The translations under genes and the position numbers were made by a program. Of a DNA stretch of 64,000 nucleotides, positions 18,682-51,310 are shown one piece after another. This DNA comes from Mesostigma viride. Lineage: Eukaryota > Streptophyta > Mesostigmatophyceae > Mesostigmatales > Mesostigmataceae. The stretch is from NCBI GenBank assembly GCA_009746045.1, contig RPFO01000175.1:6051666-6115665 (forward strand), written 5' to 3'. The first letter of the stretch is position 1, and every line of letters starts with the position of its first letter. Under the pieces are notes generated by a model. The model searched no databases, was not told the DNA's origin, and was given only the letters and a program-made list of their open reading frames with translations.

Positions 18682-21600
18682 ATGGCGTCTTTTGAAGTGA
18701 GTCAGAATACGCATTCGCCCCAAGGGGACAACGATGAGCTCGGCCCTGGAGCAGCGGCTGCTGAGGTCAACCTTTTGCGGACGGCTGATCTTGCTCCGCA
18801 GCATTTAGCGTCTATTGAATCAATGCAAGCGCCGCAGAACGCTGCACGACAACATCTCCAGGCGTTGTTGGACTTTCTTACTCGTTGTCTTGTCCAACAA
18901 GTCAACCTGACCGACAATGCCAAGCAGGCTGTCGGGAAATTGAAGTCCATCCGTAAAAATTCAGCCAGCGAATATGTTATGCGCCGGAGTGACAGCGGAT
19001 GGACATTCTTGCAGGCGATTTTCGTCGACATCTTGCAACCTCTGCATATCAAGCAAGCGGCTAGGCTGGCATTTTCGCACCCTGACATTCGAATCCTGGC
19101 TACGGAGCTTGCCATGCTTTGCAACTGGTTTCTTTTTGACGGTTTGCTGGCCGATGCTCCTCTCAGCAATCCTAACTGTTACATGAAATGGAAGCTTTTA
19201 GAGACGCTGCTGCATCGCGACATCAGCATTTGCCCGCCCGCCGCACAACATGCTTTGAGTGGTGCAGGGTTGCCCAGTGAGCACGAGGTGGAACCCAAGC
19301 CAGCAGGGATGGGGCCGCTATCATCTCCTTTGGAGGTGTTCGTTCAGTTGGTCACACTGCCCATTGGTGACCAGTCCCAGGCGCGCAATTTCCAGGGCAC
19401 CGACGTGCCGACAGAGCAAGCAGTGCTGGAGCTGCTAAGAAAAGCTTGGGCACTGACAGGAGGAGCTGTTCCCGCAGAGTTGCACATTCCCCCGCTGCTA
19501 GTCCAAGACCTATCCTGTCTCGGTGCCTGCGTCCTTTTTCCTCCTGTACCCAGCCGGGTGGAGCTGGTCGATGGGGAAACCCTGGGACACAGCGTGCAGC
19601 CCTTTCTCGACGCGGCCAGTGCATTGCAAAAGTCGTACATCGATAACGGCTGTGCTGATGATTCCCCTGGCTTGGACGTGGCGGCCCCCGCTGATGCCGT
19701 GCTCGTGTACACTGATGGGAGGAAGGCCAAGCTGAAGGCAGGCGAGACGGTGTGCGTGCGGCGATCTGCCCTGCATGTGGTCACAGGTATTCTCAGCAGT
19801 GCCAGTGAGACATGCCTGCTACCTACCCGGGATGAATCTACCATGTCGGCACCTGCGCTGTGCAACCTGGGAGCCTTTACTGATCACCTCGACGCTGTGT
19901 GCTTGAACGCCACGGACTTGAAGTTGTCGGAGGACGCCCTGCTGCAGCTGCTGCGAGCGGTGGGGCCCCGGCTCACCGTACTCACAGCGTTCACGGACCA
20001 TGTCATGACTAAGTTACTGCAGCGAGGCTTTGTGCACAACCCCTTGAAGTGCGCTAAAGAAGTCATGGCGTACATAGTCGCAGTGGATGCGGGCAGGGCT
20101 TTTCCTGCTGACACGCCTTGCGGTGTGACATACATGTTGTACGATCGGCAGCAGCTGGCCCTCGCCGCGTTCTCACGAATGTTTTGCGGGTGCCTGTCCA
20201 AGTTCTCGATTCAAGATCAACTGGCCGTGCTGCAAATGCTCTCAGAAGCAGTGACACGGGCAACCTCGGTGGCGAGTCGCAAGCTCATCTTGGACACCTT
20301 CCTGACGGCGGCAAACGCGGTGCGCATGACGAACGAAGCGCTTGGCGTGGAGTCCCTGCGGACCCTGATCCAGTTTTACCTGACAAAGGGTACCAGTGAC
20401 GTGCCACAGGCAGATGCCGAAGAAGACATTGTAAGCCTTCATTGATATGAGTTTGTCATTGCAAGTCTTGCCCCTGCAGGCTTTCTTGTGTCAATGAATA
20501 TACATGCGTTGGTCTGTAGGATTATTTTTCCATGCGCTGTGAGATAAATTGTTTGTTCATGCACTCCCTGACATGCACGCAGGCAGTTGCCCATGCGGTG
20601 TTGTTACTTGTTCGCCAATGCACGCATCACACAGCAGTTTCTATCATTTTGCCCTCACCGGTGTCCAACCTAGCCACCGCTCAGGCCATGTGCACAAATA
20701 AACACATGGGCGTGGGGGCCAAAGCTGTATCTAGGCCACTTCACTTCACTTCCTTATTGACAGTGTTGAAAAAGCTGTTTTGCTGAAATGGTTACTGCCT
20801 GAGAAGGCTAGTCTAGGTCAAGGAACATGGGTTTCTGGAAGCTACATTACCCTTAGTGTACAGTAGTGTACCATTAGTAGCATGCCATGGAAGTGCCCCA
20901 GTAGTTATGCTTATGGAAACGGCTGTTAGCCCATTAACGTAAGGAATGAGGCAAGGGAACCCCTCGAATATTTGAAGAAGATATTTCGTCCTTGCTTCCC
21001 TAGTATACTGGGCATACTGGTATGCATGCTGGCGTATATAGCCATTTTAGTATGCACGCGTAGAGGCTATTGTATGATTGATAAATGATCATCTCGATGC
21101 AGGATTCATGGTTAATGCCCAGTGCTTCCTTCTCGCCTAAAGCAAATAGTGCTCTGTCTGTGTTTTGATGCATTCATATGGCTTGCTTCATTGGAATAGC
21201 TCTATTGCTACACCACAGTCCTCAAGACTCCTATTCGTTTTTGCGGTTTCTTCATTGATGTCTCAACAGCTGGTCAACCGCCTGATGGCGATGGCTACGG
21301 AGCTGCAGCCAGGCGAGGTAATCACCGAACTGCTCCTCATGGCGGACAACGGGACGGCCGCGCTGGATCACTTGGTGCGGCTCGCAGGCACCGAGAGCAC
21401 CCTCAAGGGATGGAGGGACAGCCTGGGGGCGCTGGACAAGAGCCAGAAGAGGGCGGTGGTGAACGCGCTGGTCCACATCAATGCGCCCAACCTGCTGGCG
21501 GACAGTCACAAGCATGAGCCGGCACTCGCGTCGCTGCTGTGCCACGCGCTTACCGTGTTTCCAGCAGATGCCAGCAGTGGTGTCTCCGACGATGACTGGA

Positions 21601-51310: not shown

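Follow-up and report, generated by a model that had tools for sequence, protein, structure and literature searches.

Which protein is encoded between positions 18682 and 51310 of the window (the whole 64,000-nucleotide stretch of Mesostigma viride DNA analysed here, located on contig C224), and does it belong to a known family of AAA proteins? In the earlier note, made from the sequence alone, six exons were read as joining in phase into a frame of 9,542 codons with six midasin/dynein-type AAA modules and three VWA domains, a layout for which no described family was known. After rebuilding the join, we obtained the same model on the plus strand, with exons at 18682-20430, 21270-23272, 24175-27486, 28221-45217, 46076-49881 and 50549-51310, giving 28,629 nt or 9,542 codons plus the stop; all five introns are GT-AG and the phases match across every join. 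The longest open frame in this region is 5,789 codons, against a maximum of 415 over 100 mononucleotide shuffles of 18682-51310, ruling out a chance open frame. The codon-usage score was positive for 6/6 exons and negative for 5/5 introns, a contrast that is partly by construction because the training set consisted of the middle of exon 4 and introns 1, 2, 3 and 5. Searches for tRNAs and against Rfam at the gathering threshold found nothing. Upstream of the giant gene, a perfect GTT microsatellite (14464-17209) extends over 2.7 kb with 915 copies, and at 3385-8813 on the plus strand are pieces of panB (ketopantoate hydroxymethyltransferase) in at least 4 exons, separated by long CT and CAT repeats; the last panB piece falls just below the Pfam cut-off.

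The model rests on the in-phase join and, in addition, on paralogues from the same genome. The AAA_5 profile was used for a search of the 440-Mb assembly of 2,243 contigs, and the best 23 of 170 candidates, which were those scored, fell in the window (5), contigs C113 (5), C1106 (5) and C1557 (3), and other contigs (5). From a reading of their frames, the five other loci appear to encode three dynein heavy chains and two Clp-type ATPases; a plastid-type ClpC likewise seems to be present in the genome. Complete giants of 9,566 residues on C113 and of 9,555 residues on C1106 were found, with no internal stop in either. The genome thus holds at least three giants, a lower bound because only the best candidates were scored. 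The window protein is identical to the C113 protein at 5,942 of 9,388 aligned residues (63%) and to the C1106 protein at 4,164 of 9,100 (46%). All three genes show intron phases 0, 2, 2, 1, 0 at positions within 6 alignment columns, with the reservation that for C113 and C1106 we picked the splice sites beside tblastn edges and also chose the start codons, and that the phase-2 acceptor of intron 3 was picked among several candidates, so that the agreement there is by choice. Intron lengths over the three giants range from 347 to 4,555 nt.

Comparison of the window gene with C113 gave dN/dS values of 0.269/0.876 over the whole protein, 0.189/0.688 for the AAA ring, 0.351/1.060 for the Ig region, 0.097/0.464 for VWA1, 0.055/0.511 for VWA2 (the lowest dN) and 0.144/1.357 for VWA3, and the overall comparison with C1106 gave 0.528/1.272. 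As dN was lower than dS in every region tested, with an overall ratio of about 0.3-0.4, the giants are under purifying selection; three intact copies and a dN/dS well below 1 rule out a pseudogene. No result was returned when viral contigs were searched with exon 5 and with the block from the exon 4 start to AAA6, when genome contigs were searched with the latter block, or when plasmid records were searched with VWA3. As a separate observation, contig C2011 (L026; 1,488,356 bases) contains a frame of 861 codons without interruption, which we read as a ClpB of bacterial type, and this contig may be bacterial, derived from an endosymbiont or a contaminant.

The weakest of the five joins is intron 4. 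An in-frame ATG at 46069 lies 7 nt 5' of its acceptor, and the locus could on this ground be divided into two adjacent genes, one for an AAA-Ig protein with its end at 45249 and the other for a VWA protein that begins with this ATG. Both paralogues also have an in-frame ATG upstream of the acceptor, and the base composition of intron 4 did not decide the matter, the panB intronic stretches resembling intergenic DNA too. However, the places of this ATG differ among the three giants and the sequence preceding the acceptor is not conserved, whereas the GTRAGG donor and the acceptor, both in phase 1, are kept in 3/3, a retention that supports the join at the level of sequence comparison. Furthermore, VWA2, downstream of intron 4, is of the MIDAS type, the head to be expected on a midasin-like ring. 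A division into two genes is therefore considered very improbable, and the single chain claimed previously is supported by the gene model together with two intact paralogues with matching introns.

With one chain as the working model, we examined the AAA modules. Pfam AAA_5 matches were found in exon 2 (one), exon 3 (two) and exon 4 (four), and P-loops were located at six positions, aa 1049, 1556, 1885, 2212 (degenerate), 2903 and 3275. AAA1 (22608-23132, plus strand as for all features of the gene; aa 1030-1204) has the Walker A motif, the Walker B Glu and the sensor-1 Asn. AAA2 (25031-25531; aa 1537-1703) retains Walker A, carries DA for DE in Walker B, has lost the sensor Asn and is devoid of the helix-2 insert, while AAA3 (26018-26515; aa 1866-2031) is complete in its catalytic motifs. 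AAA4 (26999-29238; aa 2193-2258 and 2591-2694) is divided by a long insert between its halves that spans intron 3 (27487-28220); its P-loop is one residue short, its Walker B reads ED for DE, and its sensor Asn is lost. AAA5 (29806-30309; aa 2884-3051) has Walker A, the Walker B Glu and the sensor Asn, with loss of the arginine finger. AAA6 (30922-31872; aa 3256-3318 and 3469-3572, separated by an insert) has Walker A and DN for DE in Walker B; the sensor Asn is kept in the window protein, and C113 and C1106 carry an altered Walker A motif. In all three giants the odd modules AAA1, AAA3 and AAA5 keep the catalytic residues, and the even modules AAA2, AAA4 and AAA6 are without the catalytic Glu. 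Since a random loss of three sites out of six gives strict alternation in 2 of 20 ways, the alternation by itself is statistically unremarkable; what stands out is its conservation. Neither the three paralogous genes nor the alternating live and dead ATP sites were noticed in the earlier note.

The arginine finger is missing from AAA5 only (ENLF or ANLF). In dynein-type rings each site receives its finger from the module that follows. If the same direction holds here, the loss at AAA5 would hit only AAA4, the P-loop of which is broken, and for each of the complete sites AAA1, AAA3 and AAA5 the next module retains its arginine. Supply of the finger by an adjacent unit is described in PMC7311170. 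Half of the sites being dead in every giant agrees with the protein acting mainly as a regulated scaffold or switch rather than as a pulling motor, as argued for RNF213, which is competent only at AAA3 and AAA4 (PMC7311170). We regard such a role as rather unlikely for the giants, in which three sites are complete and paired with an arginine each time and the VWA heads resemble the ligand-pulling MIDAS.

The relationship of these modules to midasin turned out to be specific. For every AAA stretch tried, the best PDB match was midasin, and the start of exon 4 gave E-values of 5.8e-129 for midasin, 1.1e-8 for NorQ and 1.6e-5 for dynein, noting that these values sum many module-by-module matches and that the best single-module value printed was 1.3e-30. 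At an E-value of 1e-5 or better, dynein was represented by two chains (4.6e-6 and 7.9e-6) in one AAA stretch and by none in another, against 1e-99 to 1e-130 for midasin. NorQ and CbbQ match single modules in the PDB search, and no RNF213 chain was included among the 27 PDB sequences matched at E-values up to 0.01. The P-loop positions, the AAA_5 matches and the midasin matches together bear out the claim of six midasin/dynein-type AAA modules.

The giants share with midasin (MDN1/Rea1) six AAA modules in one chain, the odd and even module types, a long tail and a C-terminal VWA of MIDAS type, but they are about twice as long, with three VWAs and, in the window protein, a probable Ig/ASH-like region. 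The ATP sites also differ: in the giants AAA1 is live and AAA2 and AAA4 are dead, whereas in Rea1, according to PMC6286127, AAA2 to AAA5 are functional and AAA1 and AAA6 are without Walker B. Because the loss of the AAA6 Walker B Glu is common to Rea1 and the giants, only a part of the ATP-site pattern is special. The AAA2 helix-2 insert, which inhibits the ring in Rea1 (PMC6286127), is not found in the giants, where the spacing from Walker A to Walker B is 66, compared with 173 in yeast. No D/E-rich block precedes the VWAs, the D/E fraction being 0.16 or less per 250 residues from 7251 to 9500; such a block is also missing from the MDN1 frame of C1557, the pre-MIDAS part of which is unassembled.

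Is the window gene then the MDN1 of this organism? On contig C1557, a frame of 5,349 codons matches fungal Mdn1 from AAA2 to AAA6, in order, with 57-80% identity. A MIDAS motif, IDDSRSM, lies about 11.5 kb past the end of this frame on the same strand, and we infer that it is part of the same MDN1 gene. The AAA1 of C1557 was seen as a short upstream piece only, with a 41-residue match to fungal AAA1; this AAA1-like piece (L010 1124 onward, about 671124) is preceded, within one open frame, by a long repeat coding for LLLY that is probably intronic. Judged from these sequences, C1557 carries the canonical MDN1 of the genome, separate from the window gene. The outcome that would have refuted the earlier note, all modules falling one-to-one inside MDN1 with no other MDN1 in the genome, did not occur; another MDN1 was found, and since the canonical gene sits elsewhere in the same genome, the window gene is not MDN1, an identity also ruled out by the module tree. 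In a comparison of partial modules of AAA1-5, the Mdn1 modules of S. cerevisiae and S. pombe are 49-81% identical to each other, and those of the window protein are 29-50% identical to both.

The module tree was constructed from 35 half-modules, consisting of six from each of three giants, six from each of two fungi and five from C1557, under Q.pfam+G4; it supersedes an 18-row tree and leaves out the C1557 AAA1 piece and the five other AAA_5 loci. Giant module clades were supported at 94-100% and MDN1 module clades at 97-100%, the AAA1 MDN1 clade being made of the fungi alone. In the ML tree no giant clade pairs with the MDN1 clade of the same position; the best cross pairing was giant AAA1 with MDN1 AAA5 at 91%, below the usual 95% mark. 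The AU tests rejected neither positional orthology (p 0.188) nor a ring rotated by four (p 0.142). With all giant modules placed together against all MDN1 modules together, p-AU was 0.0129, p-KH 0.0094 and p-SH 0.0754, so that independent assembly of the two rings is rejected by the former two tests and not excluded by the last. The safe reading would be a shared six-module ancestor followed by an old split of giants and MDN1, the latter because the module clades of each are separately monophyletic; long branches could mislead.

The failure of the AU test to reject positional orthology, the MIDAS type of VWA2 and long branches that could push the giants outside MDN1 would all fit a fast-evolving, lineage-specific duplicate of MDN1 that is still engaged in ribosome assembly. 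We hold such a duplicate to be improbable, since the MDN1 modules of two fungi and this organism form their strongly supported clades without the giants (fungi alone for AAA1), and the giants have no AAA2 helix-2 insert, catalytically dead AAA2 and AAA4 and no acidic block ahead of the VWAs.

Three VWA domains were predicted in the C-terminal part, and three D-x-S/T-x-S-M motifs are present at aa 8609, 9034 and 9283. VWA1 (47695-48414; aa 8561-8800) contains a MIDAS-type metal site, D-N-S-G-S; VWA2 (48982-49614; aa 8990-9200) is a midasin-type MIDAS head; and VWA3 (49837-51091; aa 9275-9470) is of the VWA_4 type, split by intron 5 (49882-50548), with one Pfam match continuous across this join. 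Each VWA of every giant has the metal-site aspartates with D-x-S/T-x-S. The three-VWA claim stands as to the motifs, on evidence that is uneven as to domain scores. In the window protein VWA2 passes the Pfam cut-off (27.0 against 23.8), whereas VWA1 (21.1 against 23.8) and VWA3 (VWA_4, 23.3 against 27) fall below. For VWA2, C1106 passes at 25.1 and C113 just fails at 23.2; for VWA3, C1106 passes at 33.8 and C113 fails at 20.9; and VWA1 is below the cut-off in both paralogues.

Of the 12 distinct PDB sequences matched by VWA2 at E-values up to 10, six carry a midasin label, and the best match is 8ql1 (E 0.0012), labelled NDE1 and of midasin MIDAS type in sequence. Chain A of this entry, despite the NDE1 molecule label, we take to be human MDN1. 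The other five matches are to unrelated proteins, with weak E-values that are no better than 0.46, and PDB searches with VWA1 and VWA3 gave no match. Against the S. pombe MIDAS, z was 13.8 for VWA2 and 7.6 for VWA1, neither score being reached in 500 shuffles, and 0.0 for VWA3. VWA1 and VWA2 thus look MIDAS-derived, and VWA3 looks to be of other origin.

The remaining regions gave few matches. The N-terminal region (18682-22607; aa 1-1029), made of exon 1 and part of exon 2 with the intron at 20431-21269 between them, contains no family above the Pfam cut-off. The linker region (31957-40896; aa 3601-6580) has no relative detectable in PDB, Rea1 included, or in Pfam. It is followed by an Ig/ASH-like region (40897-42936; aa 6581-7260), a weakly supported stretch absent from the earlier note, in which Cep192_D3 scored 40.3 bits over a cut-off of 27 and HYDIN-Ig and ASH matches were below cut-off. 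We consider the Ig/ASH assignment likely, though not firmly established, because C1106 gave sub-threshold Pfam matches only and C113 none. In Pfam, no family was above cut-off for aa 7261-8020 of exon 4 (42937-45217) and none was found for aa 8021-8560 of exon 5 (46076-47694). Two single-sequence AlphaFold models had mean pLDDT values of 34.2 and 36.4.

Several other systems resemble the giant in part. Dynein heavy chain also has six AAA modules in one chain and belongs to the same AAA+ clade (PMC7159879), but its similarity is weak, and separate dynein chains are present in the genome by our reading of three frames. RNF213 is a giant single chain with six AAA modules, some sites of which are dead (PMC7311170); unlike the giant with its VWA domains it is a ubiquitin ligase (same source), and no RING or ubiquitin-ligase domain was found in the pieces of the giant scanned with Pfam. 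The bacterial MoxR-VWA pairs (NorQ/NorD, CbbQ and RavA/ViaA) combine a MoxR-type AAA with a VWA (PMC7159879), but they are separate subunits (PMC13036017), whereas the giant is one chain with six modules. A full-text literature search, mostly without subscription papers, showed no second midasin-like protein with this layout, in line with the claim that no such family has been described; there may well be relatives among proteins recorded as uncharacterised. Because the kinship of the AAA modules and of the VWA2 MIDAS with midasin is specific, the giant is better described as a divergent sister of midasin than as an unplaced layout. VWA8 is much smaller than the giant. It may be likened to the giant, by description only, as a eukaryotic protein with ATPase-associated domains and a VWA (PMC8517341).

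Taken together, we favour, as reasonably probable, a separate family of at least three members, each a single chain with six AAA modules, which would be an old sister of midasin beside a normal MDN1 and act as a pulling ring with alternating ATP sites and metal-dependent heads. By analogy with Rea1, the six modules would close into a ring, ATP would be hydrolysed at every second site, with the arginine for each of these three sites supplied by the module that follows, and the dead sites may act as hinges or as joints held by nucleotide. The long tail would be driven by the strokes, and the metal-binding heads might grip acidic ligands so that partners are pulled out of, or into, a large assembly, the model system being Rea1/Mdn1 acting on Rsa4 and Ytm1 (PMC6286127). 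With three heads, the protein could hold a single large target in several places or select between targets. Force transmission is proposed by analogy only, because no solved relative of the linker was found, not even Rea1, and the remodelling role suggested in the earlier note is likewise what we infer for the giant. A radial-spokehead gene is present in the same genome and, with the frames read as dynein heavy chains and a plastid-type ClpC, indicates that the organism is probably a flagellated alga. A ciliary cargo is thinkable because of the ASH-like region; this is a guess, and an unlikely one. A broader proposal, to which we give slightly less than an even chance, is an ancient class of single-chain six-AAA machines beside dynein, midasin and RNF213, split off from midasin before fungi and algae separated, in which three live/dead pairs would move a tail bearing three different heads that grasp in a metal-dependent way, with three genes in a flagellate alga, possibly for building or remodelling of cilia.

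The midasin design was seemingly used more than once, here for a larger machine with its own ATP-site logic in three copies beside MDN1. The conserved alternation of live and dead sites lends itself naturally to testing what number of working sites is required in a ring of six modules, and the presence of three VWA heads per chain raises the question of how a multivalent, metal-dependent grip is used. For annotation, it is unsafe to name AAA_5-plus-VWA giants as midasin by default.

Elsewhere in the window, a fragment at 2273-2593 on the minus strand containing GETGCGKTTQIPQ looks, by our reading, like a DEAH-type RNA helicase, its Pfam NTPase match being sub-threshold. Downstream of the giant gene, 71-base repeat arrays occur in both orientations at 57304-59404. 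At 61102-63767 on the plus strand, a CCHC zinc knuckle scores above cut-off in gag-like frames, which are followed by a 529-codon frame with no Pfam match, and this region is probably a retroelement.
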